IMG/VR virus record: IMGVR_UViG_3300042691_006323
Coordinates: 1-37,143 of that record
Source of the DNA: a virus
Strand: one strand, 5' to 3'
DNA length: 37,143 nt
Below the pieces are notes generated by a model that did no database searches, was not told the origin of the DNA, and saw only the letters and a list, made by a program, of their open reading frames with translations. Position 1 is the first letter of the stretch. Each line of letters starts with the position of its first letter. This document shows positions 1,778 to 33,490 of the stretch, piece by piece. Position numbers and translations under genes: made by a program.

Positions 1778-2533
1778 TTATAATGTTCCAAAGTTTACTG
1801 TTCTTAGATACCCTGTGTATCCTTGCAAGTCATAATCTCTGGCTGATGTTATGGCAATACCGAATGCATCTAATGTTGGCGAGAATGCCGTAAAGTCACC
1901 GTAATCTCCTGTAGGAAATACTTCGGTGTTAACTACGTCTTCTACGTATGCTTCAGAAGCAAATGATCCAGATGCCAATCCAGTATTTGTAATTGTAATC
2001 TTATTTAGGATGGAATCCAGTGTAACAGAAATACCTGAACCACCCTCAATCGCTAAAGCTGATGATGTAATTGCTGATAATGAAGTTTGGCTCGGCGATG
2101 TTACTGAAGCAAAACCAGATCCATTTGGAATCCACGTTACGTTACCGCTACCATCAGTTGATAGAACATAATTTGGTGAACCATCAACGGTAGGTAAAGT
2201 ATATACATCATTTACACCAATAGAACCTGCATTTAATTTTCCTGCTACACCAACGCCACCTGTTATTTTTAACGCACCAGTTGTTTTGCTTGTTGAAGCA
2301 GTAGCATTTGTTAAAGTAAGTGCGTCCGCAGAAGTTGCGCCACGAGCAGTAATATCACTTAGTGTATCAGCAGGAGTATGTACTGATGCAATAGTTGTTA
2401 CAACACCAATACTATTTTTAGTAAATATCTTTTTATCAGCAGCATTAAATGCGATCTCTCCTACTGCAAGATCACTTGCAGAGGGGATTGCTCCCGCAAT
2501 CTCAGATCGCTTTAATTTAATTACATTCGACAT
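1778..2533 (-). CDS. Tail fibre-family structural protein, 251 aa
   Basis: The N-terminal 50 residues (MSNVIKLKRSEIAGAIPSAS, then DLAVGEIAFNAADKKIFTK) are the same type of module that opens the upstream 938-residue fibre (IIRIKRSTTAG). Residues about 96-120 contain TASTSKTTGALKITGGVGVA, nearly repeating a segment of that same neighbour (about 225-245). The C-terminal part (about 200-251: VFPTGDYGDFTAF, then TSARDYDLQGYTGYLRTV) is distinct and resembles the ends of small structural proteins of marine T4-like phages. Its ATG overlaps the stop of the preceding gene as TAATG, so the two are probably translationally coupled. Likely a shorter fibre or an adaptor in the distal fibre complex; the role is inferred only from the modules and position. 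Confidence 0.7.
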   Translation of the reverse strand: MSNVIKLKRSEIAGAIPSASDLAVGEIAFNAADKKIFTKNSIGVVTTIASVHTPADTLSDITARGATSADALTLTNATASTSKTTGALKITGGVGVAGKLNAGSIGVNDVYTLPTVDGSPNYVLSTDGSGNVTWIPNGSGFASVTSPSQTSLSAITSSALAIEGGSGISVTLDSILNKITITNTGLASGSFASEAYVEDVVNTEVFPTGDYGDFTAFSPTLDAFGIAITSARDYDLQGYTGYLRTVNFGTL

Positions 2534-5349
2534 TAAGCGTATGTTCCACCGTCAATATCACCGTATACTAGCGTAGTTCCGTTAGATTGTAAAACTTGAC
2601 CACTAGTACCCACTGTTAATTTAGAAAGAGCAGTTGAACCACTAGCAACTAGCAAATCACCAACTGCGTATGACGATTGACCTGTACCACCGTAAGCAGC
2701 AGCAACAGTAGTTCCTTGCCATACACCAGTAGTAATAGTACCTAATGTAGTGATACTGTTTTGACCGATATATGTAGAAGCAATATCGATACTGTCAGCA
2801 TTAACAGTAATTCTGTTAGATGTTCCACCGATATCTAATACACCAGCTGTTAGCGTTAAACCGTTACCTGCAACAGTTGATTTTAGTTGCAACGCATCTG
2901 TTGCAATTTCAAGACCACCTGTCGATGCTACGTTTACATCTAGAACACCAGAAGCAAGCGAAAGACCAGAACCTGCTAGGCTGCTTGAAAGAGAAACTAC
3001 ACCATTGCTGAAACTTAAACCAGAACCAGCAACAGAAGATTTCAATCCTAATTCATCAGATACAATTTCAAGACCACCATTTGTTTGTAAAACGATGTCA
3101 ATTGTGTTGCCAGTAAACGCTAGACCAGAGCCAGCGATATATGTTCCAGCTCCAGAGAACTGTTCAAATACAATGTTGTCTGTGCCAATCGCTGTAGACT
3201 TAACAGTTTGTACCCAACCTGTTTTGCCGTTTACTGTACCACTTGAAACGAATAAGAAGTCACCAGAAGCAACTTCAGCTGTTGTATTAAAGTCAGCAGC
3301 ACGTGTAAATACTGTTGAAGAAGTGCGAACGTAAATACCATTATGCGCAGCGTTTGCTTGATTCTTAATTAAAACACGATCACCATTTATAAGTGAATAA
3401 CCATCTAAGGTATTCAATGGTGTATCTGTAGTTAACGTAGCGCCAACACCAGCAGTTCCATTATCATAAGTTACAGAACCAGGAATCGCTGCTGTTGTAG
3501 CAGCCATTACTGAAGCATGAATGTGTAGACCTTCAGCTACCGCATCAACGTATGCTTTATTTGCAGCGTCTCCAGGTAATATTGGAGTAGCAACATCTCT
3601 AACTAATGCATTACTTGCTGAGATGTGTCCTGTTCCATTTGGAGCAAGAGTAACACCACCATTAGTATTAGTAGCACTAATTGTATTACTATCGATGCGA
3701 ATATTATCAACATCAAGTTGAGTAATTCCAGCTAAAGTGGTAGAAGTTGAACCAAGAGAAACTGAAGTAGAACCGATAGTTACTGCAGAATTTTCTAGTT
3801 GTGCGTTGCCAACACCACCTGCTTTAATAGTAACTACACCAGAAGATACATTAAAATCTGCTGCATCGAAAGATGCCACACCAGCATTAGAGCCAGTAGC
3901 CAACTCACCAGCAATAGTAATTGTCGTTCCGTTGTGGGTAACATCAATACCTTCCCCACCAAGCACAGAGATGGCATTACCTGCCATGTTGATTGCGCCA
4001 GAGTCAGTTGTAATTCCTTGAACAACAGTGTCGCTTAGAGAAACTGCACCAGCAGTTACGTTAAATCCTGTTGATGAGAAAGATGCAATACCTTTGTTAG
4101 TTGACGAAGCATCTTCGCCAGCAATAGTAATGGTGTTATTTGTAACAGCTACGTCAACACCTTCGCCACCAGAAACAGTTAATGTATCTGTTAATAGCGC
4201 AACACCATCAGTACCAGTATCGCCAGCGATATTAAGAGTAGTTCCTACTTGTGCAGTTCCTGCAGCAGTCAAACGACCTTTTGAATCAACAGTGAAAGTT
4301 GGGATAGCAGTAGATGAACCATAAGATCCAGCTGTTACTGCAGTTGTCTTAAGGTCTAATGTAGTAGTACCAGTTGTGTCGTTGTATGTAGCATCAATTT
4401 CTGTGCTGTCAGCAATCTGACCACCAGTAATATCTTGAATGTATTCTTGTAGTGTATCGGCACCAATCATTACTGAACCATTGAAGGTAGCAGTAGATGA
4501 TGCTGATAGAGTTGTAAATGCACCAGTGCTTGGTGTCGTGTTACCGATTGGTGTATTATTAATGTTGCTGAATGTAGCAGACTGAGCATTAATTAAACCA
4601 CCAACTTGCAATGCGCCAGCAACACCAACACCACCATCAACAACCAAAGCACCAGTTGTTGTGCTTGTTGAAGCAGTAGTTGCATTGATATTAACCGTTG
4701 CAATCTTAGTTGAAATATCTAAACTATCGGTGTCTACTGAGAATGCTTCGGTACCATTCGTGACAAATGAAAGTGTATCGTCTGAAGCGCCAGGAGAAGA
4801 TTCTGCGGTAATGTATGTTAGACCATCAACAGATTTAACGCCACCTAGAGAACCCCATGTAGTTCCTGAGTAACCTTCGAAAGAAGAAGTATCAGTGTTG
4901 TAACGAACTGTACCTTGTACAGCTGGTCCACGTTGAGCAGTAGTACCGACTGGGATAACAGCACCATTAGTTCCTACAATAGAAACATAACCAGTACCGT
5001 TTGGATCTAATATGATATTACCGTTAGTATCGGTAGAGGAAATTGTATTTCCATTTAAGTCAAGGTTGTCAACTTTAAGTTGATCAATCTTACTATTAGA
5101 ATCAGTAATTATTGCGGAGTTAGCAGTTAGAACACCCTTTGCGTGATCCAACATGTCGGTGAAGAATTTACCACCAACGACAATATGCGATGCAGCGTTG
5201 CCTGAGGTCTCAGAACCTATACCAATGTATAGTCGGTCGCCACCAGTTACGAGAGCCGAGTCTGCTGCTGAGTATGCTAGTTCGCCACTTCCAAGTGTTG
5301 ATGGATCGCCAGCAGTAGTCGATCTTTTAATACGAATAATAGATGCCAT
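2533..5349 (-). CDS. Large repeat-mosaic tail fibre protein, 938 aa
   Basis: Fibre-type protein built of beta-rich low-complexity segments (G, S, T, A, V, D, N). The N-terminal module IIRIKRSTTAGDPST...GELAYSAAD (1-30) matches that of the next gene. Residues 91-124 and 545-578 share (L)-x-VDN-x-x-x-(N/D)-x-NTIS-(S/A)-T-(D/N)-TNG and PNGTG. Residues 391-440 and 461-510 are a duplication with a 70-residue period; 739-791 and 792-844 one with a 53-residue period (AGSGL, GGLEI). Residues about 593-730 (GDAANKAYVDAVAEGLHIH, GDRVLIKNQANAAHNGIYV) and 866-930 (GVWQGT, YGGTGQSS, GTSGQVLQSNGTTLVYGD) are modules found in many phage fibres. GGAGA precedes the ATG. Probably a trimeric shaft or receptor-contact fibre; no enzymatic motif is seen. 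Confidence 0.8.
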   Translation of the reverse strand: MASIIRIKRSTTAGDPSTLGSGELAYSAADSALVTGGDRLYIGIGSETSGNAASHIVVGGKFFTDMLDHAKGVLTANSAIITDSNSKIDQLKVDNLDLNGNTISSTDTNGNIILDPNGTGYVSIVGTNGAVIPVGTTAQRGPAVQGTVRYNTDTSSFEGYSGTTWGSLGGVKSVDGLTYITAESSPGASDDTLSFVTNGTEAFSVDTDSLDISTKIATVNINATTASTSTTTGALVVDGGVGVAGALQVGGLINAQSATFSNINNTPIGNTTPSTGAFTTLSASSTATFNGSVMIGADTLQEYIQDITGGQIADSTEIDATYNDTTGTTTLDLKTTAVTAGSYGSSTAIPTFTVDSKGRLTAAGTAQVGTTLNIAGDTGTDGVALLTDTLTVSGGEGVDVAVTNNTITIAGEDASSTNKGIASFSSTGFNVTAGAVSLSDTVVQGITTDSGAINMAGNAISVLGGEGIDVTHNGTTITIAGELATGSNAGVASFDAADFNVSSGVVTIKAGGVGNAQLENSAVTIGSTSVSLGSTSTTLAGITQLDVDNIRIDSNTISATNTNGGVTLAPNGTGHISASNALVRDVATPILPGDAANKAYVDAVAEGLHIHASVMAATTAAIPGSVTYDNGTAGVGATLTTDTPLNTLDGYSLINGDRVLIKNQANAAHNGIYVRTSSTVFTRAADFNTTAEVASGDFLFVSSGTVNGKTGWVQTVKSTAIGTDNIVFEQFSGAGTYIAGSGLAFTGNTIDIVLQTNGGLEIVSDELGLKSSVAGSGLSFSNGVVSLSSSLAGSGLSLASGVLDVNVASTGGLEIATDALQLKSTVAGNGLTLTAGVLDIGGTSNRITVNADSIDIASTYIGQNSITTLGTITTGVWQGTTVAAAYGGTGQSSYAVGDLLVASGSTALSKLTVGTSGQVLQSNGTTLVYGDIDGGTYA
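2818..3135 (-). repeat. 53-residue (159-bp) duplication in the 938-aa fibre
   Basis: Residues 739-791 and 792-844 are in register: AGSGL/AGSGL at 739/792, GGLEI/GGLEI at 758/811 and AGSGL/AGNGL at 774/827 are all exactly 53 apart. Each unit also contains an inner AGSGL half-repeat. Confidence 0.8.
3823..4170 (-). repeat. 70-residue (210-bp) period duplication in the 938-aa fibre
   Basis: Residues 394-440 and 464-510 repeat in register: GGEGVDV/GGEGIDV, TITIAGE/TITIAGE and SFSSTGFNV/SFDAADFNV are each offset by exactly 70 residues. Likely duplication of a shaft segment. Confidence 0.75.
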
Positions 5350-15003: not shown

Positions 15004-15227
15004 TATCGTTTATCCAATAAAAGTTTTAACATAGTTTTCATCTCAGCAATATCATCCTTCATATTATTTATCTCTTCTTTCATAAGGTCTTTTTCAGACA
15101 GTTCCTTGAGCATCTTTGATCTTTGCTCTTTATAGAAACTGTATGATTCTTTATTAGAGTTAATCACTCCACCATTGACCATATCTTTTCTTAGATCTGG
15201 GAAATTACTAACTCTAACTTTTTCCAT
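15003..15227 (-). CDS. Small coiled-coil protein, 74 aa
   Basis: N-terminal MEKVRVSNFPDLRKDMVNGG (1-20) is followed by a strongly charged heptad-patterned stretch (residues 24-74: YSFYKEQRSKMLKEL, then LMKEEINNMKDDIAEMKTML and KLLLDKR), which reads as a coiled coil. The V-x-NFPDLRKD start is, from memory, conserved in small proteins adjoining the DUF4815-type giant gene of marine T4-like phages. TAATG overlaps on both sides couple it to its neighbours. Probably a trimeric connector or bracing protein for the giant structural protein or fibres; that role is inferred. Confidence 0.65.
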   Translation of the reverse strand: MEKVRVSNFPDLRKDMVNGGVINSNKESYSFYKEQRSKMLKELSEKDLMKEEINNMKDDIAEMKTMLKLLLDKR

Positions 15228-18200
15228 TATGAGTATGCTACCAATCTTAGGTTTTTAAGTTTTGGAACATATACAGGATGGCTAGATTTCATTACAATTT
15301 TAATTGCTAAGTTTGTAAATGGTTTAATGTCTTCAACCGTAATATTTCTTTCGCTAAACACATTTTGTGCGTCAGAGGTAGACTTAGTAAATCCAGTGTC
15401 TACATAATTCAATGTATTTAGATCAGCTGTATTTTCCCATGCACGATAATACACTTGTAAATCTGTTCCTTCTGCTAGGTTGGCGTCAAACAAAATCTTA
15501 ATAGAATCTGCTGGTGAATCTAGTAGTAGAGTTCTTGTAATATAGTTTGCTTTGTTAGATGCGCCTACTGGAGCAAAGTCAGCAACATATTTATCAAGCA
15601 CAGAAATAGCGAATGTAGAACCTTGTGTATTAGTCGTTACTGTTCCTGTTGCGGTAAAGTTACCTTCAAGAGTCAATGTTACTTTGTCTCCCTCAGCGTC
15701 TCCAGAGTCTACAGTATCAGTAGAAACTACAACGGATTTGACCAAGAATTTACCGTTGATATTAGTTGCGCAGTTTTCAATCTTGATATATTTACCTGCC
15801 GTTACGGTAGCCAATAGGTTATCAGCAGCATCATCGTCAGTTACTATTGTACAAGTTCCAGTTCCATTAGCGCAAACCAATGATGAGGTAACTGTATTGT
15901 CTAGTAGTTTTCTCTTGTCAATCGCTTCTACGTTTAAGTCAAATTCTTGAACATCGTTAATTAGATTTTTAACAACATAGGCAGATATTTTCTGCATATC
16001 AATCATTGGCGATACATTAGGATTAGAAGAAGAAATTCTTGCTTGTAATCTTAGTGAAGGACGAATAACAGATGTTACTGGATTGACATATTGATTTTCT
16101 AAACTCTTAACAGTTTTTCTTGTATCGAAAATGTAATCAGCATTAGCCACGATAGGAGCATATGGAATCATAGTTCCAGCAGCATTTTCTGCGCTGACTT
16201 TGTATGTCAGAGTAGTATCTTGGAAAGTTAGATCGGCTGTCTTCAAGTATAGTTGATCTGCTTGATATTGTCTAGTAATAGTTACGCCAGTTCCACCGTA
16301 GTTACCTTTAACAAAATCGGCAGTAGTTGTTTGAGTACTTGTAGATGTTTTATAAGCAAGTAGATTTTGTGGAGGTATAGAAGAATCTTGTGTTGTAATT
16401 TCAAACACGAAAGAATCATCTTCTAAGCCATCAGCAATAACAGTTTGTGGTCCATTCAATAAGCTGGCTGGGATACCTAGCAATGGATCGTTGCTTCCGT
16501 AGTTACCTTCAGCAACACCACTAATAATTACTTTGTCGTTAGCATTAAATCCATGGTTCTTAGCAAGAACACGAATCTTAGTTGTTCCTGTAGAAACTTC
16601 AAATGGGTTTGTTTGTAACTCATAAGAGTGAGGTGGAACAGCTTTGAATGCTGCAACAACTGTAGCTGAAGTATCAAAGGTTGCCTTGTACAAACCGAAC
16701 TTCAAGTCTAGCAACGGATTAATCTGGAACTCTTGTGTATTTTGCGACAAGAATAATGAACCAGTTAATGGTTGTGAAGTTACAATGTTATTTGTGATGA
16801 TGTCGTTTTGTCCTAATTCAGAAACAAACACTTGACATCCTGGCTCGTCTGTCTTAACAACGATAGCATAAGTTTCGGCATCTTGTAAATAAACTGGAGC
16901 AGCAAAATTAAATCTTGTTGCAACAGAACCATCATCAGAAACTTTTAGTTGCTGTGGTGATAGAGTTACTTCAGTTAAAGGAACAATCTTAGAAGAAGGA
17001 ACACCATTGTTTGTTGTTCTGATTTCAACTGTTACGGGACGATTACCTGCTTCAGAGAAATACATATCTACGCCAGTAACGAAAGCGCCACCTAGTGAAC
17101 TTACGGTAAAGGTTTGAGCAACTGGATCGTGTCCTGTCCAGTATGAATATAGAACACGTGTTGAAGTAGATGTTCTACGTACAGGAATTTCTTCATAAAG
17201 TCTGTCTTGAACGAAACGAACATCACGAGAGTTAACGATTGTTCTTTCTTTAGAAAGCGTAGTTCCTGAAGAAATATACATCGCAGATCCCTTAGAGTCA
17301 AACGCTGCATCGTTGTTTGAAATATTATCAATCAACTTGAATGCACGCTCTCCTGATTTAAAGGTATTTGCTGGGAGGTAGAACGTACCAACAGCAGAAC
17401 CCCAAACATCAGTTCTAATTGAATCGCCACGTTGTTTCATTGTTGGCAACAAGCCAACACCTGTGCCATTAACTAATTCAAGATCAACACGATTCTTCAA
17501 TCCTGTTGAAATGTCTGCTTGACCTGTCAACACATCTCCAGGAGCAAAGCCACCCTTAATGTTTACAACATGAATTTCCATGTCAGAAGGGTATGTGTTA
17601 ACAACACCACTCTCTGTCAGGTTAGTGTAAGTTGTTACTGCGCCAGCAAATGCAACAACACCAGAAGCTGTTAGACGTTTTAGTTTACCACCGTCTCCAG
17701 AATTATATGCTGCGGTATTGTATGCGCTGAATGCAGATATAGTAGCGCCATTTGGATCAGCTAGAGTTACTGTAGTGCCAGATACGTTTGTTACTTTGAA
17801 TATTCTGTAATTTAATTCTTCAGATGTATTCAATGAATAGTTGATAATTGTAGAAGTAGTTCTAGCCAAATCAGGGAACAAACTATTCGGTGAAGTGATA
17901 GATCTTGCTGCTGCCAAATTATATAACTGAACAAAGTGTCCTGGTCTAATTCCAGTAGCAGATGCTACTGACAAGGTAAACGATGTTTCGCCGAGAACAT
18001 TAGTAATATGTGTAATAGCTGTAATATTTGTTGCAGTATGTTCTTCGTTCTGAACAACATCACCAACACTATATGCTGCTTCTACTACACCATTTTCTGT
18101 TCTGAAAAAGCTGTCTGTTAAAATCTGTTCAGTTAACTCAGCTGGATCAAACACCATCTTAGTTGCACCAGTTGCAAGATTAACTTTAAAGACATCGGCA

Positions 18201-21200
18201 GGTTTAATAAATTCGCTGATAGATCTACCATCAAAGAAGCCATAGAATTTAGTGCTTGCTTTTAAGTTCTTTGCGGTATAAACGATAGGACGTGCACGCA
18301 TGTAAGGTGCATATGAAATATCAACAACTCTATCGCCATAGTCTACAGCATTAACTGTAGAAGACAATGTTGTTTGGATACCTTCTCTAGACTGAATACC
18401 TGTTTCAGTTGTAATCGTTTGTTCAAAGCCAGTAACAGTTTGGCGACGACGATTAGGATCACCTGTCTGCCATGTAGAGGTTGAAGTTGAAATACCTGTC
18501 CAGTTAGTTTGCCATTCACCCCACTGAGTACCAGTAACACCAAGTTGCTCAGCCATAAAGCGAATAGCATCATATCCGTTATCGTCAACAACTGTTAAGT
18601 CTGGGCGACGCTCTGTATCTTTCCATACATCGCTCTCTGGGCTTAATACAATTTCACCTTTGAACGCACCAATCTTATATGGGTTTACGTCAATAGTTCT
18701 TGTGCCGTTAGGGTTGAAAATGAAAATTTCTTCAGCGTATGGTAGAGAAATAAAATCGCCAGTTTTCTTGTAACCATTAGAAGCACGTTGAGCAGCAGAT
18801 TCTAGATCTTCAACAATATCCACAGCTTGCGTAAAGTGCATAGGACGTAGTTCTCTGTTTACAGTATCAACAGAAACTTTGTAATCTGAGTTCTTAACAT
18901 CGCCGATACCGTGACCTGTAAACTGGTCAACAATGAAACCATTTTTAAATCTATCAATACCTGTCAAGGCATCTTTAATTTGTAGTTGCGCAGTATCTGT
19001 CTCTAGTAAGTTTAGAGAAACATAGTATTCTAGATTTGAAATTCTTCTTTCGAGGTCACCAATATCACGCATTGTATAGCGACGATTATCTCTTTGATAG
19101 AATTTAATGTCTCCAACACTTTTAGTGTACGCTGGAACCATAACAGAAGCCAACACCATTCCGTCTTTTGGATCTAGTGGCTCTTGTGGGCTTACCGCTG
19201 GAACACCAACAATAATGTTGAAGCGACCAACAGAGTCAAGAACAATCTTATCAAAACGTGGAAGGTAGTATGCAATATCAGACAACATCTCGTTGCCGAT
19301 AACAGGAATCTCGTTTAGGCTGGTGTTACTTCCACCAATTACTGGACGATAGTCAATAACATCGTGCAAATAAACTGTTTCACGTTTTCCGTCTTTGCTT
19401 CTTACTGAATATGAAGGAATGTCTTCATAGTTGAAGTCTGTGTTTTGAGTAATAGAGTTTGTGTATGAATCAACAGAGAAGTAATCGCCTGTTGTTCCAT
19501 AATTAAAGAATTGGTATTCAACTCTTAGAGCACCAGAAGGAACTGATTGTCCTGGCTTTAGAACCAACGAAGCATTAGTATAATGTGTATCACGTTGTCC
19601 GTCATCTAGAACGAAACGATCAGTAACATCAATACCTGTTGTAAAAGTATTGTTTGTAAAGTTACCTGGATTCATTAACACTGATTTTATACGCAACACG
19701 TCTGCTTTAGCAAGAGCAACAGATTTAGTAGTTACAGTTTTTTGCCCTGTAATATATTCTGTGTTTGATGTAAGAATCTTTTCTTTTGCTCCACCTTCAC
19801 TGTTCGCCTGATTAACAGTAGCGATCATTAGGTAGTTAGTACCGTTAGCAATTTTTGATACGCTTTGAATTTCTACTTTTGTGTTGTTAGAAGAAAGCGT
19901 CACATCAGCAGAATCAATAGGAACGATAGCGTTCGTTGTTGTGTTGATTAGAATAAAGTTAGAAATATCTTGGTCTGATGCAAAAGATTCTAAGTCGGTG
20001 TTTAGCGTATGCTCAATTTTATTATCGCCAGCTGTCTTAACACCAAATACACGTCTAACTTTTGTAGAAGTTTCACGTGCAGAATAAGAAGAACCATCCC
20101 AACCTAATAAGGTCTTGATGGATTCATATCCTACTTTGTATAGAAGAGAATTAAATTCAGGCTCAAATAGTTTTGCTCTGAATATTGATATAACACCACC
20201 AGTTTTAGCTGCAGCTCCATTAGCCGCTAGTGTTAGAGTAGTGTTTACTGATGGATCTGATGCAACAGTACCGACTAATGTGCCGTCAATGTATACAACA
20301 TCAAATGCATTAATATCATCGGTAAACTTAGTTCCTACGCCAGTAACAGCTGTAGCGCCTGTCGTTGAAGTGGCAGAACCAGATAATTGTTTAAATGTTG
20401 GAACGATATTACATGTAAAGTTTGTAGAACCTGATAAACCATTTACAATAGACTTGACATCAGTTTCAAATGAACTTCCTTCGTTCATTACAATTTCAAA
20501 TAAACTTAATTTAAAGATAGGAGCAGTATAATCACCATTGTGAAGTTGGAAAGATCTAACTTTTGCCGTACCAACAATATCTGCTGTTGATGGTGAAGCA
20601 CCACCTACCGTATTTAATGTTCTTACAAGGTATACTGTTTGGAATGTAGCAATATCTGGATACTTGTATACGCTATTTACAAGACAGTAGTTTCCTACTG
20701 GTGTAGCAATAGGTTGGTTGTTTAGTCTAGCAACGTGTCCGTCAGCTTCGCTTCTTGCTTTGTTTAATGTTAGATACTGTGTAGAAACAGATTCAACTTC
20801 ATAACCTTGAACGTATGCCTTACCTGGATCAATACCGATAACAAATTTATCTTCGCTACCACCTTGCGCAGCAGTATAAACACCCAATGGTTTTTCTGCA
20901 TCTAATAAGTGTTCAAATGTTGAAAGTTTAAATTTGTTTACTTCATAGCTACCCGACTCGTCAAAGGTTCTTCTAGCAAAAGTTTTTTCTAATTCAGCAT
21001 AAGAAGACTTGTCAATCTTTTGTTGAACACGACCAGCTTTAACACGAAGTAATTCGATGAAACGATCTTCGTCTGCTGTTTGTAGTTCTTTCTTAATTAA
21101 CTCTAATTCAATTTTATAGCGATGAGCACCTGGAGCTGCAAAGTTATTTGAACCTTGTGCATTGTCATTTAAGTTTTCATCATCTTCTGGTGTAACAATA

Positions 21201-21937
21201 GTTTCGTTAACACGGAAACCAACACGATTTGTTGGGTCTACGCTAAATCTTCCAATGTAAAGGTGTAGTTCGTCATTCTTAACAAAGAAGCCATCTACAT
21301 AATAGATACCTGCTTCAACTTCAACTACGTAACCGAAACCGAGAACGTCTTTGATAGGATCGTTTGTGTAAGATGTACCTACTAGACCAGTATCACCGAA
21401 ACTTCTTACGTTAACAACAAGGCTACCTGTTTGGTTAACTGTTAAGCGATAGTTTGTAGCAATTTGGTTATCCGCTTCTTCTGCAACTAACTGCTCACCT
21501 GGAATGAAACGCTTTGTTTCATCATCATCACCAGTACCTTCAATCTTGTAGTAAAGTGTAGCAATTTCTTTTTCATCTGCAAGAACGCATGCGCACTCAG
21601 ACGTATCAATAACAACTGCCTTCAAGCCAGATGTCTGACCAGTAATAACTTTGTCTCTGAATTGTGTCAAATATGATTTGACGGAAACACCTTGATTCAG
21701 ATCTTCTAGTTTAGCGAAGTGAACTTTATTATCTACGTTAATGTTTCCAGGGATAACCATGGATCCATTCTTAAAGATATGATCACCCAAACGACTTACT
21801 TGTTTCTGTAAAATCGTTTGTGCTTGTGTCAGTTCTCTGGCTTGTACTGCGTATCCAGGACGAAACAACACACGAAGAAATTTATCGTCTTCTGTGTAGT
21901 CGTCGTAGTATGGATTTACGTTGAAGTTTATAGTCAT
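15227..21937 (-). CDS. Giant DUF4815-type virion structural protein, 2236 aa
   Basis: Largest gene in the window. The N-terminus (MTINFNVNPYYDDYTEDDKF, then LRVLFRPGYAVQARELTQAQ and TILQKQVSRLGDHIF) is the signature of DUF4815-containing structural proteins of marine T4-like phages. Mid-protein motifs also fit: VIDYRPVIGG (about 860), a charged coiled-coil segment RRYTMRDIGDLERRISNLEY (about 950-975), and FKNGFIVDQFTGHGIGDV (about 1000). From about 1590 a beta-sandwich begins with SYWTGHDPVAQTFTVSSLGG. One G-T-x-F-x-x-D...D-x-(V/I) module (about 530) and one H-x-(L/F)-x-x-x-DKV module (NHGFNANDKVIISG) are shared with the 1842-residue protein. It follows gp8, so it sits where T4 has gp9/gp10. 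Likely a peripheral baseplate component; start supported by TTAGGTAA. Confidence 0.8.
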   Translation of the reverse strand: MTINFNVNPYYDDYTEDDKFLRVLFRPGYAVQARELTQAQTILQKQVSRLGDHIFKNGSMVIPGNINVDNKVHFAKLEDLNQGVSVKSYLTQFRDKVITGQTSGLKAVVIDTSECACVLADEKEIATLYYKIEGTGDDDETKRFIPGEQLVAEEADNQIATNYRLTVNQTGSLVVNVRSFGDTGLVGTSYTNDPIKDVLGFGYVVEVEAGIYYVDGFFVKNDELHLYIGRFSVDPTNRVGFRVNETIVTPEDDENLNDNAQGSNNFAAPGAHRYKIELELIKKELQTADEDRFIELLRVKAGRVQQKIDKSSYAELEKTFARRTFDESGSYEVNKFKLSTFEHLLDAEKPLGVYTAAQGGSEDKFVIGIDPGKAYVQGYEVESVSTQYLTLNKARSEADGHVARLNNQPIATPVGNYCLVNSVYKYPDIATFQTVYLVRTLNTVGGASPSTADIVGTAKVRSFQLHNGDYTAPIFKLSLFEIVMNEGSSFETDVKSIVNGLSGSTNFTCNIVPTFKQLSGSATSTTGATAVTGVGTKFTDDINAFDVVYIDGTLVGTVASDPSVNTTLTLAANGAAAKTGGVISIFRAKLFEPEFNSLLYKVGYESIKTLLGWDGSSYSARETSTKVRRVFGVKTAGDNKIEHTLNTDLESFASDQDISNFILINTTTNAIVPIDSADVTLSSNNTKVEIQSVSKIANGTNYLMIATVNQANSEGGAKEKILTSNTEYITGQKTVTTKSVALAKADVLRIKSVLMNPGNFTNNTFTTGIDVTDRFVLDDGQRDTHYTNASLVLKPGQSVPSGALRVEYQFFNYGTTGDYFSVDSYTNSITQNTDFNYEDIPSYSVRSKDGKRETVYLHDVIDYRPVIGGSNTSLNEIPVIGNEMLSDIAYYLPRFDKIVLDSVGRFNIIVGVPAVSPQEPLDPKDGMVLASVMVPAYTKSVGDIKFYQRDNRRYTMRDIGDLERRISNLEYYVSLNLLETDTAQLQIKDALTGIDRFKNGFIVDQFTGHGIGDVKNSDYKVSVDTVNRELRPMHFTQAVDIVEDLESAAQRASNGYKKTGDFISLPYAEEIFIFNPNGTRTIDVNPYKIGAFKGEIVLSPESDVWKDTERRPDLTVVDDNGYDAIRFMAEQLGVTGTQWGEWQTNWTGISTSTSTWQTGDPNRRRQTVTGFEQTITTETGIQSREGIQTTLSSTVNAVDYGDRVVDISYAPYMRARPIVYTAKNLKASTKFYGFFDGRSISEFIKPADVFKVNLATGATKMVFDPAELTEQILTDSFFRTENGVVEAAYSVGDVVQNEEHTATNITAITHITNVLGETSFTLSVASATGIRPGHFVQLYNLAAARSITSPNSLFPDLARTTSTIINYSLNTSEELNYRIFKVTNVSGTTVTLADPNGATISAFSAYNTAAYNSGDGGKLKRLTASGVVAFAGAVTTYTNLTESGVVNTYPSDMEIHVVNIKGGFAPGDVLTGQADISTGLKNRVDLELVNGTGVGLLPTMKQRGDSIRTDVWGSAVGTFYLPANTFKSGERAFKLIDNISNNDAAFDSKGSAMYISSGTTLSKERTIVNSRDVRFVQDRLYEEIPVRRTSTSTRVLYSYWTGHDPVAQTFTVSSLGGAFVTGVDMYFSEAGNRPVTVEIRTTNNGVPSSKIVPLTEVTLSPQQLKVSDDGSVATRFNFAAPVYLQDAETYAIVVKTDEPGCQVFVSELGQNDIITNNIVTSQPLTGSLFLSQNTQEFQINPLLDLKFGLYKATFDTSATVVAAFKAVPPHSYELQTNPFEVSTGTTKIRVLAKNHGFNANDKVIISGVAEGNYGSNDPLLGIPASLLNGPQTVIADGLEDDSFVFEITTQDSSIPPQNLLAYKTSTSTQTTTADFVKGNYGGTGVTITRQYQADQLYLKTADLTFQDTTLTYKVSAENAAGTMIPYAPIVANADYIFDTRKTVKSLENQYVNPVTSVIRPSLRLQARISSSNPNVSPMIDMQKISAYVVKNLINDVQEFDLNVEAIDKRKLLDNTVTSSLVCANGTGTCTIVTDDDAADNLLATVTAGKYIKIENCATNINGKFLVKSVVVSTDTVDSGDAEGDKVTLTLEGNFTATGTVTTNTQGSTFAISVLDKYVADFAPVGASNKANYITRTLLLDSPADSIKILFDANLAEGTDLQVYYRAWENTADLNTLNYVDTGFTKSTSDAQNVFSERNITVEDIKPFTNLAIKIVMKSSHPVYVPKLKNLRLVAYS

Positions 21938-27775: not shown

Positions 27776-28168
27776 TTATCGGGTTCTCTCTAGAACTAAA
27801 TCCAATGTTATTGGAGTAAATGTGTTTAAAATTTTAAAGTCTATTCTAACATTAACAGAGTTATTACCTTCATCATACAAAACTTGTGCGTCAATTAACT
27901 CAACACGTGGTTCGAAGGTGTTAATTACATCAATAATGTTTTGACGAATAACTGTTTCTGTAAATGGGTCGGCAAGTTCAAACATTAATGCAGTTACTTG
28001 AGAGCCGATCTCACTGTGAAATGGTCGTTCAAAGTTTTTCGTTAGAATTAAGTTTCTTACCGAACGCTTGATCGCATTCTCATCTAGTCTGACAGAAATA
28101 TCGCCTGTGACTGGATGCTTTGTGAAGTTTAGATCTAAATCTACGAAGTTTCTTGTATTATTGGCCAT
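27776..28168 (-). CDS. 25: Baseplate wedge protein gp25 (lysozyme-like fold family)
   Basis: 130-residue gp25 family protein, close to the T4 length (132). Residues 1-30 (MANNTRNFVDLDLNF, then DISVRLDENAIKRSVRNLIL) and the family signature ERPFHSEIGSQVTALMFEL (about 47-65) are visible, followed by the usual C-terminal strand pair (VELIDAQVLYDEGNNSVNVR). gp25 clamps gp6 and gp7 in the wedge core and is shared with type VI secretion (TssE). The ATG at 28168 is preferred: the open frame extends 21 codons further into the PAAR gene, but that stretch (RCNSAGISKHLYWWI) is out-of-frame PAAR sequence. A 5-prime AATAAATA at 28174-28181 is too close to act as a usual late promoter. Confidence 0.92.
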   Translation of the reverse strand: MANNTRNFVDLDLNFTKHPVTGDISVRLDENAIKRSVRNLILTKNFERPFHSEIGSQVTALMFELADPFTETVIRQNIIDVINTFEPRVELIDAQVLYDEGNNSVNVRIDFKILNTFTPITLDLVLERTR

Positions 28169-28179
28169 ATCTTTATTTA

Positions 28180-28488
28180 TTATCCACCAATAAAGGTGTT
28201 TGGAGATCCCTGCGCTATTGCATCTCCACAAGAAATATTATCTCCAATTCTTGCAGCAGGGAAACCCTCTATGAAAGTATTTCCTGAACCCGCAACATGA
28301 GATCTAGCTGATGGTTGTGGATGAACTGTTATACCACAAGAATGGGTAGCGTGGAAAGATTGTCCACTTACTACTCCTGGTTTTATGCCATTGATAAATG
28401 TTTTAGATACAGGTGATCCAACCATTGGAGTTGGAGGAAAGCACCCATGACCAGTGCTTTTATCGCCTATTCTAACTACTGCTGGCAT
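28180..28488 (-). CDS. 5.4: PAAR-domain baseplate spike tip (gp5.4-like)
   Basis: 102-residue PAAR-repeat protein that caps the membrane-piercing needle. It begins MPAVVRIGDKSTGHGCFPPT, contains the literal PAAR at residues 77-80 within GFPAARIGDN, and has paired (N)-x-F-I-x-G turns (TFINGIKP at 30-37, NTFIEG at 70-75, NTFIGG at the end). Candidate metal ligands are C16, H46, H49, C51, H56, H64 and C87. In T4 the equivalent gp5.4 binds the tip of the gp5 beta-helix. It lies two genes after the spike gene, separated by one unknown protein, and its ATG overlaps the previous stop as TAATG. Confidence 0.92.
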   Translation of the reverse strand: MPAVVRIGDKSTGHGCFPPTPMVGSPVSKTFINGIKPGVVSGQSFHATHSCGITVHPQPSARSHVAGSGNTFIEGFPAARIGDNISCGDAIAQGSPNTFIGG

Positions 28489-28952
28489 TATCTTGTGTAT
28501 CCTACATAAGTTTGTAGACTGTTTTTACCACTGGTCCAGTCATTTTGTACCGTAATAGTATAGTTATTTATAGCCACAACAGTAGAACCATTCATTGCAG
28601 ACACAGTATATGTGTAGTTTATAGTTCTTGTTGTGTCCGCATCATAAGAAGTCATTTCAGACAATTCACTTCTACTAATCTGCTCAAATTTATCTACCGT
28701 CACAAAGGTATCTTGAGGTGTTCTATACGTAATACTGTTGTCAAAAGAATCATAAAAATAACCAGATATAGATCCTGGATCACCATTTGTCCTTACAACT
28801 GTAGTAGGATTTGTCTGATTTGGTGTAATGACAACAGGATATCTGGTTGTATTTCCTGGAATTAACAAGTCTTCTTCCTCATAATATATCGAAAATGAGA
28901 AATTTTGATACTCTAAAACTGTTCCAAGTATAGGATCTTCAGGGTAAAACAT
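28488..28952 (-). CDS. Unknown 154-aa beta-rich protein between spike and PAAR tip
   Basis: I do not recognise this family. The likely start is ATG 28952-28950; an in-frame TTG immediately before (28955) could also initiate, but the AGAAGGGAT ribosome site fits the ATG. The protein is rich in T, N, S and Y. The N-terminal third is acidic and aromatic (MFYPEDPILGTVLEYQNFSF, SIYYEEEDLL) and the C-terminal half alternates like an immunoglobulin-type sandwich (TRTINYTYTVSAMNGSTVVA, then INNYTITVQN). No cysteine or enzyme motif. Sandwiched between the spike hydrolase and PAAR tip, it may be a spike-tip accessory, a hub component or a chaperone for tip assembly; this is inference from position. Confidence 0.6.
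   Translation of the reverse strand: MFYPEDPILGTVLEYQNFSFSIYYEEEDLLIPGNTTRYPVVITPNQTNPTTVVRTNGDPGSISGYFYDSFDNSITYRTPQDTFVTVDKFEQISRSELSEMTSYDADTTRTINYTYTVSAMNGSTVVAINNYTITVQNDWTSGKNSLQTYVGYTR
28565..28572 (-). promoter_or_regulatory. Exact TATAAATA inside a coding region, possible late promoter
   Basis: Perfect T4 late octamer on the minus strand, lying within the 154-residue gene (encoding part of AINNY). It would start RNA near 28558, about 70 bases upstream of the PAAR ATG, and so could boost PAAR, gp25, gp6 and the rest of the wedge genes. Coding constraint or chance could equally explain it. Confidence 0.35.
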
Positions 28953-28955
28953 CAA

Positions 28956-31900
28956 TTATCCCTTCTTGGGAAATACGCCATTTTCTGGCTCTAGTAAAAC
29001 AAACCCTTTAGGGAAACCCTTAGCATCTCTTTGATACGTAGCGTGTCTAGACATAGTAAACGCCATTCTTCTATTGCCACCCTTATAGTTGTAACCGATA
29101 TGAATCCAAACAGAAGAAGGATTATCGTATTCAAGAATAATTTGATCGTAAGGAATAACACGTTCAATTTGTTGGACCAACTCAAATGTTCTCTTATAGC
29201 GATCACCACCACGCAAGCCAATATCAAGAGCCTGTCCTTTACAGTGCGGAGAGGTTTTAGATTCTACCGCAAGAACACCCTTCAAACGATATCCTGAGTT
29301 AATACCCCACAGTCCTTTCTTATAACCAACCATACCTTGTGGCACAATTTCAGCAGCCACCAATGGTTCTAAACATGCTTCAACGTGGTTAGCCAAGTTA
29401 CACACAATTTCTTGTGGTGTATAAATGCGTGTTCGAACTGCGTCTTTAAATTGTAAGAAGTCTGTAAGTTCTTGGTTTTGTAATCTGTGGCGTCCATTTA
29501 TACCACCATCGCAACACATACCCAGTGTAAAGTTCTTCGTTAGTTTATAGCTGTCAGTAAATCTCTCGCTCGAGAAGATAACTGCACAATCAACTTTAGA
29601 TTTTGGATCTGGTACACCACCAGATGGTGCTGGCGCTGCTTCAGCTGGTGCGTTGTTATTTTCTCTACCTGCAACTTCAGCATTTTTATCGTTCTGAAGT
29701 TTTCTTCCTTCTGGTGTGTTTAGATCTTCTTCTGTTTCACCAGCTTTCTCTTTATCTGCTGTACGTTCTCTTCCTTCAAGTGGAGCAACGCTGTTACCTT
29801 GTGGGTTACCTTGTGGTGGGAACACTAGAGCAGTTGCATCTGCTGGTGCTTTTGGTGTAGCCTCATTAGCGCCATTACCAAAATCACCTCTTGAGTAATC
29901 AAGACGCATAGCAGCACCTGATTTTATTTCCATAGCAGAATCAGTACTAAATCTTACACTTCCTGTGGATTTAATGTCCGTTAGTTCGGTAACTGCTATA
30001 CCAAGATTACCTTTAACTGCAGCAGATGCACTTCCACCAACATCAATATCTAAATTACCTCCAACTTTAAGAGAGAAGTCAGAACCAACTGCCATGTTCA
30101 AGTTTTGAGCAACACCAAGATCTAGGTTAGCGCCAAATATTGCTTCGGCATTACCTTCTACTTTAATATTTGCATCTGATTGACATAGAATGTTTACTTG
30201 TCCACCAACTGTTAAATTGCAAGCACCCCAAACATAGAGGAAACCGTTTTTCGACATAACTGTATAGTTATCGCCAACAATATAATCAACACGTGTGCCA
30301 TCGGCATCAATGTCTGAGAAAGTTCCTGCTCTGTGAAACTGTGTGATACGCTCATTTCCTGGAGTATCATCCCACTCCATAACATGACCAGATTCAGTTT
30401 CCATAACTTTATTGTAAGGATACTGTCCACCAAATGGTGCTTCTGGTTGGCTCCATGATGCACCATTAGCTGTAGGAATTTGTAATACTCTTAAACCATC
30501 TTTTACTTCAACGATAGTGCCTTTAAAAACACCCCTTGCTAGTCTATTAGTATCTGGCTCATTTAATAAATTGCCCAAAGGATATTTTCCATTAGGATCT
30601 CTAAAACCAAATTTACTTTCGCTTGCGGAGGGTGATGGAATTACAGTACCATTTGAATCAGTACCAGCTGATGCTTCTGCTGCAGCAGGTCCATTAGAAA
30701 TTGGGTCTACTGTAGGCAACGCTTGTTTGTCTGCCACACTTTGTGATTTTTCGCCATAAAAGTATTCAAAGAATTCTTTCTTTCTTGCGCCAATGTCTGG
30801 AGAGTTTATACCTACAGCTCGCTTGGCTACTTCAAAATATCTTGCATCGGTTGGCGTATTCTTTGGAACACGATCAACTAGATACAACGCAGCAACAAGA
30901 GCGCATACGTTGAGATCTGAATTAAGTGAATCTGGATTGTTTACGATATCAATATTCAGACCCATCTTTTTAGCAAGGTTGTTGTATCTGATATAGTTTG
31001 ACTTACCTGTTAGCTGAATGTATCCACGTCCGTAGTACTTACCACCTTCAGCATCGGTAGTATGGTTGAAAAATCCCTTACCTCGTGTCGTTGGTCCATA
31101 AATGTAACTAAAGAAACCTTCTCTACCCTTTGAAGCTGGCCAATTACAGTATGATTTCCATTCTTCTTCTGGACGTTTGTTTGCGATTCCTGGAAAAATT
31201 TGCTTAAATCTTGATTCGCTATATGAGGTATTTTCAAATAATGGTTGCCATGTTGATTCGCCACCAGCGATACCAAGTAGAGCACACTTCTGCGCCTTTG
31301 CGGTTAACCCAACTTTATCGCAAGCAGCAATCATCGCTTTAATAGAAGCTGTTTGTACTGCCAAATTTTTCTGATATTTTTTAGGTGGTACTAGAGGAAT
31401 AGAATCATTAACAGGAGAAGAAGCTGGCGCTTCTGCTGGTGTTGTAGAAGGAACCGTGTTAGCAGTAGAAGTATTAGCTGGGTTTGTTGTTTGAGATTTT
31501 TGTGGTTGCTGAGCACTGTTTACTGTAATATTAGTTGTCGTGCCACTAGTGTTTAATGTATCTTCTTGTCCTGATCTACTTTCTTTTACTGCATCTAAAT
31601 TTGTTGGAGGTACTTTAAATGTGATAATGTTTTCTCCATTACCACCATACGCTTTAGTAATTCTAATTGTATCTTTTGAGACTACTTGCTCAATTACTGT
31701 TTCTTCTTGAACCCCAGCACCAAACAATCTCATCTTTTCTGTGAGTTTTGCGGTTAGGTCTGTAACTTGTCCATCAGGATCATAGAAAGTTAACTCTGTT
31801 GTTCCACCAATAGTTCTTGGAACTGTTCTTAATTCAGTAACTACTGACTCATCTTTTGGTTGTAGATTTATATTACCTTCATCAATGTCAATTTGTCCAT

Positions 31901-32198
31901 ATAGACTTTCTTGTGGTACACCACCAATAGTTCCCATCATTACAGGGAACTGTTTTGCTTCGTCTTGGAAAAATATAACAACCCATGTTCCTGGGACTGG
32001 ACCAACTGGAGAAAAACCAATACCATTCATCGCTGCTGAATTGATTGGTTGCATAGGAAATGCCCAAGGCAAGTCGTCTGTTGGTAGAAGTGTTAGATCT
32101 TCTGTGTGAACACCAACTACTCTTACTTTACAACGTCCAAGTTTTAGTGGATCATCACGACTTTCAACAACACCTGTGTGAAACATTAAATTTTTCAT
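28956..32198 (-). CDS. 5: Baseplate spike/hub gp5-like protein with GH19-like and M15-like domains
   Basis: 1080 residues against 575 in T4 gp5. Residues 1-100 are the OB-fold collar (TGVVESRDDPLKLGRCKVRV, FFQDEAKQFPVMMGTIGG). A low-complexity linker (205-270) leads to a GH19-like domain (about 275-485): GGESTW with probable catalytic E314, ENTSYSESRFKQIFP (322-336) and YGRGYIQLTGKSNY (389-402). After a second linker (483-528) comes a gp5/VgrG-type segment (GHVMEWDDTPGNERI, 604-618) and a beta-helix needle with V-x-G repeats (about 655-770). A third linker (771-868) precedes an M15-type peptidase domain: H985 and D992 in SPHCKGQALDIG, E1023 in YDQIILEY, H1033 in VWIHIGY. Together they should cut glycan and peptide bonds of peptidoglycan during entry. 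TAATG overlap with the hub gene upstream. Confidence 0.92.
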   Translation of the reverse strand: MKNLMFHTGVVESRDDPLKLGRCKVRVVGVHTEDLTLLPTDDLPWAFPMQPINSAAMNGIGFSPVGPVPGTWVVIFFQDEAKQFPVMMGTIGGVPQESLYGQIDIDEGNINLQPKDESVVTELRTVPRTIGGTTELTFYDPDGQVTDLTAKLTEKMRLFGAGVQEETVIEQVVSKDTIRITKAYGGNGENIITFKVPPTNLDAVKESRSGQEDTLNTSGTTTNITVNSAQQPQKSQTTNPANTSTANTVPSTTPAEAPASSPVNDSIPLVPPKKYQKNLAVQTASIKAMIAACDKVGLTAKAQKCALLGIAGGESTWQPLFENTSYSESRFKQIFPGIANKRPEEEWKSYCNWPASKGREGFFSYIYGPTTRGKGFFNHTTDAEGGKYYGRGYIQLTGKSNYIRYNNLAKKMGLNIDIVNNPDSLNSDLNVCALVAALYLVDRVPKNTPTDARYFEVAKRAVGINSPDIGARKKEFFEYFYGEKSQSVADKQALPTVDPISNGPAAAEASAGTDSNGTVIPSPSASESKFGFRDPNGKYPLGNLLNEPDTNRLARGVFKGTIVEVKDGLRVLQIPTANGASWSQPEAPFGGQYPYNKVMETESGHVMEWDDTPGNERITQFHRAGTFSDIDADGTRVDYIVGDNYTVMSKNGFLYVWGACNLTVGGQVNILCQSDANIKVEGNAEAIFGANLDLGVAQNLNMAVGSDFSLKVGGNLDIDVGGSASAAVKGNLGIAVTELTDIKSTGSVRFSTDSAMEIKSGAAMRLDYSRGDFGNGANEATPKAPADATALVFPPQGNPQGNSVAPLEGRERTADKEKAGETEEDLNTPEGRKLQNDKNAEVAGRENNNAPAEAAPAPSGGVPDPKSKVDCAVIFSSERFTDSYKLTKNFTLGMCCDGGINGRHRLQNQELTDFLQFKDAVRTRIYTPQEIVCNLANHVEACLEPLVAAEIVPQGMVGYKKGLWGINSGYRLKGVLAVESKTSPHCKGQALDIGLRGGDRYKRTFELVQQIERVIPYDQIILEYDNPSSVWIHIGYNYKGGNRRMAFTMSRHATYQRDAKGFPKGFVLLEPENGVFPKKG

Positions 32199-33490
32199 TA
32201 TACCCCACCTCTATCTAAATCAATAATCATAGAATCTTTAATCAACTCCATATGACAAGTATGCATCGACTCTGTATCTATAACATGGTTAATAGCAGCA
32301 ATTAAATAGTCGCCTGAGTGAACTTTGTCAATCAAATTTTCTGTTGGCTCTTGCTCATTCGCCGATTGTGTTTTGTATGTTACTAAATTTACTTTCATAC
32401 CAACTGTATAATCTGTTCTTCCTGGGACTACAATCTGAACTTTAAAAGATTCAGCTTGACCCATTAGTGATATTCTTTGTTGAGCAAACTTTGTATTAGT
32501 AATATCTGAGTAATCAGTATATACACCAAAGTGTTTTTGTTCATGCATCTGTAAAGCATTAGGCGCAACAGGAACACGACTAGAAGCAATAGGAAACTTA
32601 TTTAAATGATTATGATTCGGGTAGTCTTTTAGAAGGTTGTAATTTCTTACCGAGTATTTCTTACTAACGAAGTCATGAGTAATCATCTTAGATGCGTAGA
32701 TACCTGCTCGTGTTCTTTGCATATAGTCAAAAGATTTCTCTACTCTAAATTCTGATACACGCTTATACGCTTCATCTGGGTTTGGTGTATTTGTACCTTG
32801 CTTAGTAAAATCTCTAGTCTTATTATCAAAGACGAAATCTTGAAACTTTTCTCCAGCATATAACTCACTAATTGTCAAGAAATTAAACCCAAAACGATTT
32901 TCAAAGAATAAGTATGTGCTATTTGACTTATCGCTTACAGCCACTTTCGCCAGATAATTTAAGCACGCAGCAGGTGACCAAAAATTAGAAACGAATCTAA
33001 TTTTGTTGCTGGCTTGTTCATATCTAAGAAGTTTATCTGAGTTTAATCCTTCTGGCGTATTAACAATTCTTCTGGCAATATCGCTACATACTCCCTCAAA
33101 CGATTTACTAATCTTAAAGTTTAAGTCGGCGATTGCTTCTTTTGAAATGAAGTGGATAGCATATACTTGGTTCTTGTCGTTCATAAGTATTCTCTGATCC
33201 ATCTTAAACAAATAGAACTCACCTTGGATTATTCTAGCAGCATCAGTAAATGATGGTGTAGCAATTTTTAACAGTAAATATTCTTCTCCAATAAATGGGA
33301 AAAAGTTTACAAGATCCAAAGCATCAGCAAGAACAATAGTTCCACTTATGAATGGCGAAAACATATCTTCAAATACTTCTATTTGAACAATCTGCCCTTT
33401 TACATCTTGTGTAAAACCATTTGCTGATCTTACGATAGCAGTTTCAATATTTACCGAGCCAGCTGCTCGTAAACCAGTTAATCCCGACAT
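32198..33490 (-). CDS. Baseplate hub protein, gp27-like
   Basis: 430 residues, next to the spike gene and coupled to it by TAATG. Residues about 18-60 (TAIVRSANGFTQDVKGQIVQ, then FEDMFSPFISGTIVLADALD) show the strand-turn-strand start of hub proteins whose trimer forms the pseudo-sixfold ring between tail tube and spike. Residues about 100-215 (FKMDQRILMNDKNQVYAIHF, FWSPAACLNYLAKVAVS, FFENRFGFNFLTISEL) fit the second tube-like domain that presents a helix and beta-barrel. The size is close to T4 gp27 (391). In T4 gene 27 lies elsewhere, so the identity rests on the N-terminal pattern, size and operon partner. No enzyme motif. Confidence 0.75.
   Translation of the reverse strand: MSGLTGLRAAGSVNIETAIVRSANGFTQDVKGQIVQIEVFEDMFSPFISGTIVLADALDLVNFFPFIGEEYLLLKIATPSFTDAARIIQGEFYLFKMDQRILMNDKNQVYAIHFISKEAIADLNFKISKSFEGVCSDIARRIVNTPEGLNSDKLLRYEQASNKIRFVSNFWSPAACLNYLAKVAVSDKSNSTYLFFENRFGFNFLTISELYAGEKFQDFVFDNKTRDFTKQGTNTPNPDEAYKRVSEFRVEKSFDYMQRTRAGIYASKMITHDFVSKKYSVRNYNLLKDYPNHNHLNKFPIASSRVPVAPNALQMHEQKHFGVYTDYSDITNTKFAQQRISLMGQAESFKVQIVVPGRTDYTVGMKVNLVTYKTQSANEQEPTENLIDKVHSGDYLIAAINHVIDTESMHTCHMELIKDSMIIDLDRGGV

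Follow-up and report, generated by a model that had tools for sequence, protein, structure and literature searches.

In the window, by which is meant the whole stretch of 37,143 nucleotides of viral DNA analysed here, one polypeptide carries in order an OB domain, a GH19 domain, a beta-helix needle, a tether and an M15-like peptidase domain, and a gene for a PAAR protein lies close by. The trimeric gp5 spike of this uncultured T4-like myovirus is probably a two-enzyme entry drill, one enzyme directed at glycan strands and the other at peptide cross-links, and entry is the most likely role of such a spike. As the layout is common to many related environmental viruses, it looks like a conserved form of a known cell-entry machine.

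The gp5-type central spike protein (1080 aa) is encoded at 28956..32198 on the minus strand in a single ATG frame of 1080 codons. The preliminary description had placed both sets of catalytic motifs in one frame of that length, which was borne out; the coordinates it gave (28956-31376) belong to the same frame and cover only residues 275-1080. The protein matched the family phrog_430 ('baseplate hub subunit and tail lysozyme') at 2e-90, and the PDB structures of T4 gp5 matched it at 8e-40, with the OB domain and the needle as separate matches. NCBIfam gave no useful match for it. The surrounding genes follow the order of a T4-like baseplate cluster, namely gp48/54-like, gp53, the gp27-position protein, gp5, a 155-aa protein, PAAR, gp25 and gp6. 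Directly upstream of gp5, the gp27-position hub protein (32198..33490, minus strand; phrog_350, tail protein, 2.6e-80) has its own gene and is not in one chain with gp5. Downstream are the 155-aa protein (28488..28955, minus strand), which matched a family with no assigned function (phrog_1168, 1.2e-5), the separate PAAR tip protein of 102 aa (28180..28488, minus strand; PF05488 at 32.8 bits, over the cut-off, and phrog_281 at 3e-23) and the gp25 baseplate wedge subunit (27776..28231, minus strand; PF04965, 2e-10). Where the contigs of relatives extend far enough, gp5 is nearly always followed by a PAAR gene; the gap between the two genes is of similar size in some relatives, and in others PAAR directly abuts gp5. 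Elsewhere in the window an open reading frame of 2236 aa occupies 15227-21937 on the minus strand.

Both structural hallmarks of the T4 gp5 family were found. The N-terminal OB domain (residues 1-110; 31869..32198, minus strand) matched PF06714 Gp5_OB at 1.6e-25, and the triple-stranded beta-helix needle (residues about 560-781; 29856..30521, minus strand) was recognized by sequence alignment with the T4 gp5 needle and by a custom profile; PF22178 Gp5_trimer_C also matched the needle, with an E-value of 0.0032 that is under that family's cut-off. The hub and PAAR genes expected alongside are present, phrog_350 upstream and PAAR downstream. A T4-type middle lysozyme was not found in the protein, and since a GH19 domain stands in that place, the protein is best regarded as a homologue of gp5 in which the enzyme has been exchanged.

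The GH19 domain (residues 275-485; 30744..31376, minus strand) scored 24.6 bits with PF00182 when the whole protein was searched, just below the cut-off of 25.5, and 27.3 bits, above it, as an isolated domain; the GH19 profile matched all 26 of the 26 aligned domains. Its AF2 model (pLDDT 93.1, pTM 0.88) was matched by Foldseek at a probability of 1.00 to TseP (8xcl), the closest fold match, to the Pseudomonas aeruginosa GH19 endolysin (9eoi) and to the SPN1S endolysin (4ok7). The isolated-domain score, the fold and two invariant glutamates agree with the GH19 domain ahead of the needle that had been proposed earlier. The candidate catalytic glutamates are E314 (31257-31259) and E322 (31233-31235) in the motif GGESTW..LFENTSYS; E314 had rightly been named before, and E322 had been overlooked. 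By analogy with its endolysin and TseP relatives, the domain would be expected to cleave peptidoglycan and not chitin.

Beyond the needle lies a tether rich in P, A, E, G and N (residues about 782-867; 29598..29855, minus strand) with a conserved central segment, GETEEDLNTPEGR. The tether keeps a length of 85-92 aa across the main clade, where its central segment is conserved among relatives in the form ETPEDYDTPEGR. An earlier figure of about 98 residues for this linker falls at the upper end of a range of about 86-98, the value varying with the residue taken as the end of the needle. Compared with the domains, the tether is less conserved and has a higher dN/dS, and its short conserved segments are a possible docking or cleavage site. 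The tethers of Cr30, pf16 and others, compared by eye (window 29598-29855 with L004, L107, L120, L121 and L122), have a different short helix-like stretch in common.

The C-terminal M15-like zinc-peptidase domain (residues about 868-1075; 28974..29597, minus strand) is supported by alignment, AF2 and Foldseek. Its AF2 model (pLDDT 87.8, pTM 0.86) found the Zn DD-peptidase 1lbu as the top PDB match in Foldseek (probability 1.00, E 9e-3, TM 0.38), followed by hedgehog N-domains, which have the same fold, and then, lower, by the endopeptidase ChiX and the endolysin LysECD7. Neither phmmer with the domain nor a profile of the domain gave a match among PDB sequences, so that only fold comparison, not sequence search, linked it to PDB entries. 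Among family profiles, phrog_894 ('endolysin') matched the domain at 1e-11, and Peptidase_M15_3 matched 17 of the 27 aligned domains at E <= 0.05 (best 2.8e-7), with a PAAR-fused homologue (L003) reaching 24.6 bits, above the cut-off of that family. The M15 identity given in the preliminary description draws support from these matches and from the top rank of 1lbu, though with a TM of only 0.38 and an E above 0.001; the sequence signal of the domain in the window protein is weak, PF08291 scoring 14.7 bits against a cut-off of 23.2. The assignment of the fold is based on the Foldseek ranking together with the motifs. The predicted zinc ligands H985 (29244-29246), D992 and H1033 (29100-29102) fall in the M15 ligand pattern SxHx(6)D plus WxH. 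In M15 enzymes of the VanX and T5-endolysin types an acidic residue (Asp or Glu) usually stands three positions before the third zinc ligand. This acid is absent throughout the M15-domain alignment; E1023 is therefore put forward only as a candidate general base, and the domain is classed no more narrowly than as M15-like, with M15_3 as the closest family, and not under the VanX/T5-endolysin type.

The conservation of these features was assessed among IMG/VR relatives. The whole protein retrieved 19 relatives. When the peptidase alignment served as the query, 377 stretches matched, the best 80 of which were taken, so the set is biased to near relatives; some contigs came in twice, from both searches. 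Domain profiles found the OB-GH19-needle-M15 order in 69 full-length ORFs among the fetched loci, some of them from duplicate contigs, and removal of redundancy at 97% left 36 distinct full-length proteins including that of the window. E314, E322, S983, H985, D992, E1023, W1031 and H1033 are 100% conserved in these 36, and H985, D992, H1033 and E1023, which the preliminary description had correctly named, hold down to 34% domain identity. The same order in so many proteins, with invariant residues, excludes chance. In comparisons with L008, L010 and L012, which are near relatives, dN/dS was 0.03-0.07 for GH19 and 0.06-0.10 for M15; among the linkers it was 0.17-0.34 in the first and third and 0.06-0.12 in the second. 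Saturation affects the values obtained with distant relatives. Both enzyme domains are under strong purifying selection.

The same parts occur in other combinations. A peptidase beyond the gp5 needle without GH19 was found in Caulobacter phage Cr30, Pseudomonas phage pf16 and several contigs. The middle enzyme of Cr30 is a PF18013 phage tail lysozyme in the place of GH19, which indicates that a glycan cutter and a peptide cutter were assembled there from different parts. The peptidase was also found fused to PAAR in Pseudomonas phages Astolliot, Milchi and PA5oct, P. putida phage Peetri, Vibrio phage 1.244.A and the IMG/VR contigs L114-L118, and the full predicted catalytic residue set is present in 13 of 13 PAAR-fused copies. 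PAAR with a C-terminal M15-like peptidase and the full residue set was recorded at L003, L105, L106, L108, L109 and L114-L118. That the peptidase is found now on the C-terminus of gp5, now on PAAR, is the strongest argument for its action at the spike tip, and gives independent backing to the earlier placement of the peptidase past the needle with PAAR encoded next door. The PA5oct PAAR-peptidase record bears an ESI-MS/MS note; because metabolic enzymes of PA5oct do too, the note is no proof of virion location.

In several viruses the parts are split over genes (Melnitz, L005; phiW-14, L006; L022; L024). Methylophilales phage Melnitz-3 (L005, 3944-7008) has gp5 as two genes, the first with OB and a VanY match short of the threshold (22.4 of 25 bits) and the second with needle and M15-like domain; going by these matches, its spike possibly has two peptidases. 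At L022/L023 (1371-7214) a 1948-aa protein contains, after about 1260 unassigned residues, the needle and an M15-like domain, with OB and GH19 in the preceding gene. A separate 413-aa M15-like protein adjoins gp5 at L024-L026 (7078-8316 / 2268-3506), and in this protein Asn replaces the candidate general base Glu.

Three other explanations of the fusion were weighed against the two-enzyme reading. The C-terminal domain could be a structural or binding module with the M15/hedgehog fold that is non-catalytic and grips peptidoglycan or helps the needle to fold or to be capped. The rank of the hedgehog domains right after 1lbu, the lack of the acid ahead of the third ligand and the Pfam score under the cut-off are all in keeping with such a module; however, the predicted ligands and E1023 are invariant in the 36 proteins over a wide range of identity and kept in every PAAR-fused copy, and most of the aligned domains match Peptidase_M15_3, so that this explanation appears improbable.

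Somewhat less probable again is that the peptidase is cut off within the conserved tether during assembly or entry and is free in the periplasm, or serves like an endolysin in lysis from within. T4 gp5 is itself cleaved in maturation, a conserved stretch in the middle of the tether might be a target, GH19 and M15 domains are frequent among endolysins, and the PHROGs matched bear the label endolysin. Nevertheless, covalent fusion of the peptidase to the needle in 97 ORFs, or alternatively to PAAR, argues for delivery with the tip, and the length of the main-clade tether is closely held. An artefact of assembly, frameshift or annotation, to which the separate frames in L005, L019, L022 and L092 might seem to point, is refuted by these data, as the order recurs in the 69 full-length ORFs and 36 distinct proteins and also in the isolate BUCT-ZZ01.

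T4 gp5 has an OB domain, a middle hydrolase, a trimeric beta-helix needle and a PAAR partner (gp5.4, which binds the needle tip; PMC4576200) in common with the window protein, which differs in having GH19 for the T4 lysozyme, about 300 residues with a peptidase past the needle, and longer linkers. Evolved VgrGs offer a second comparison. VgrG2b of the P. aeruginosa type VI secretion system (T6SS) carries a C-terminal metallopeptidase past a gp5-like needle, and its relatives carry the same domain on PAAR (PMC6899460), so that in both cases a metallopeptidase is grafted C-terminal to a gp5-like needle or, in other species, onto PAAR. In contrast to the window protein, VgrG fuses gp27 and gp5, and VgrG2b has a HEXXH gluzincin as its peptidase, a TTR linker and an immunity protein, with no second hydrolase ahead of the needle. 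Given that the gp27-position protein is a separate gene, the window spike works like an evolved VgrG but is not one.

Closer in layout is gp5 of Synechococcus phage BUCT-ZZ01 (ON615601), in which OB, GH19, needle, tether and M15-like domain share a single gene of 939 aa, although it is about 30% identical and annotated only as a baseplate hub subunit. The gp5 proteins of Cr30 and pf16 likewise have the needle followed by a tether and an M15-like peptidase; Cr30 differs in its PF18013 tail lysozyme, and no GH19 was found in pf16 gp5. Glycan-cutting and peptide-cutting domains are also joined in the tail-tip protein gp13 of phage phi29. The hub-hydrolase of diffocin similarly combines a transglycosylase and an endopeptidase in one protein at a contractile tail tip (PMC10996793). 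Unlike those of the window protein, the domains of diffocin and phi29 gp13 are of unrelated enzyme families and are placed on a hub or tail knob, not flanking a needle. TseP and the WHIX T6SS effectors also have two peptidoglycan enzymes on one carrier (PMC12135965; PDB 8xcl), but are secreted toxins and not structural spike proteins.

Based on these comparisons, entry may proceed as follows. Upon tail contraction, the PAAR-capped needle would cross the outer membrane, and three GH19 domains beside the needle base, positioned like the lysozyme in T4, would cut glycan strands. Three peptidases on tethers of about 90 residues would leave the distal end of the needle around the PAAR cap and cut stem peptides or cross-links, and the two enzymes together would breach the sacculus so that the tube can pass. 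The number of peptidase copies per spike would be three if carried on gp5 and one if carried on PAAR. The earlier claims that a single spike combines hydrolases of two different folds, where T4 has one lysozyme, and that it attacks both glycan and peptide bonds fit these results, the former through the profiles and AF2/Foldseek, by which each enzyme domain is predicted to take the fold of its own family, and the latter as a likely consequence of the two predicted folds. The arrangement poses a clear structural question, namely how a PAAR cap and three tethered enzymes are accommodated together. A tentative and rather doubtful answer is that the three peptidases are held by the conserved tether segment docked on the needle tip or on PAAR, with the module swapped during phage evolution between gp5, which would carry three copies, and PAAR, which would carry one, as in T6SS VgrG/PAAR effectors.

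A survey of marine myoviruses for the layout had been suggested, but a marine label is unproven: when profiles were applied to gp5 of the cultured marine cyanophages S-CAM1 and ACG-2014b and of the Pelagibacter phages HTVC008M and Mosig, neither enzyme was found; the stretch of S-PM2 examined contained no gp5. The gp5 of Mosig (L007) and of HTVC008M (L111) consists of OB and needle, and that of HTVC008M is annotated as a tail lysozyme.

No paper on this gp5 layout was found in the open-access literature searched, which is not proof of absence. Each principle of the layout has precedent, and its strangeness had been overstated: VgrG2b is an experimental precedent for a metallopeptidase grafted past such a needle or onto PAAR (PMC6899460), and diffocin is one for the pairing of a glycan cutter with a peptide cutter (PMC10996793). 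What is notable is the exchange between gp5 and PAAR and the frequency of the layout in uncultured T4-like viruses, as seen in a best-match list and not a census; in a large group of these viruses, the standard spike appears to combine two enzymes in one tool, the peptidase lying at the tip or past it. The switching of the peptidase between the gp5 C-terminus and PAAR follows the grafting logic of T6SS VgrG and PAAR proteins, here in phage entry machines. According to a 2021 review, most PAAR proteins of jumbo myophages stand alone, without fusion to an effector domain (PMC7824862), and PAAR-peptidase fusions of the PA5oct type are exceptions to that statement.
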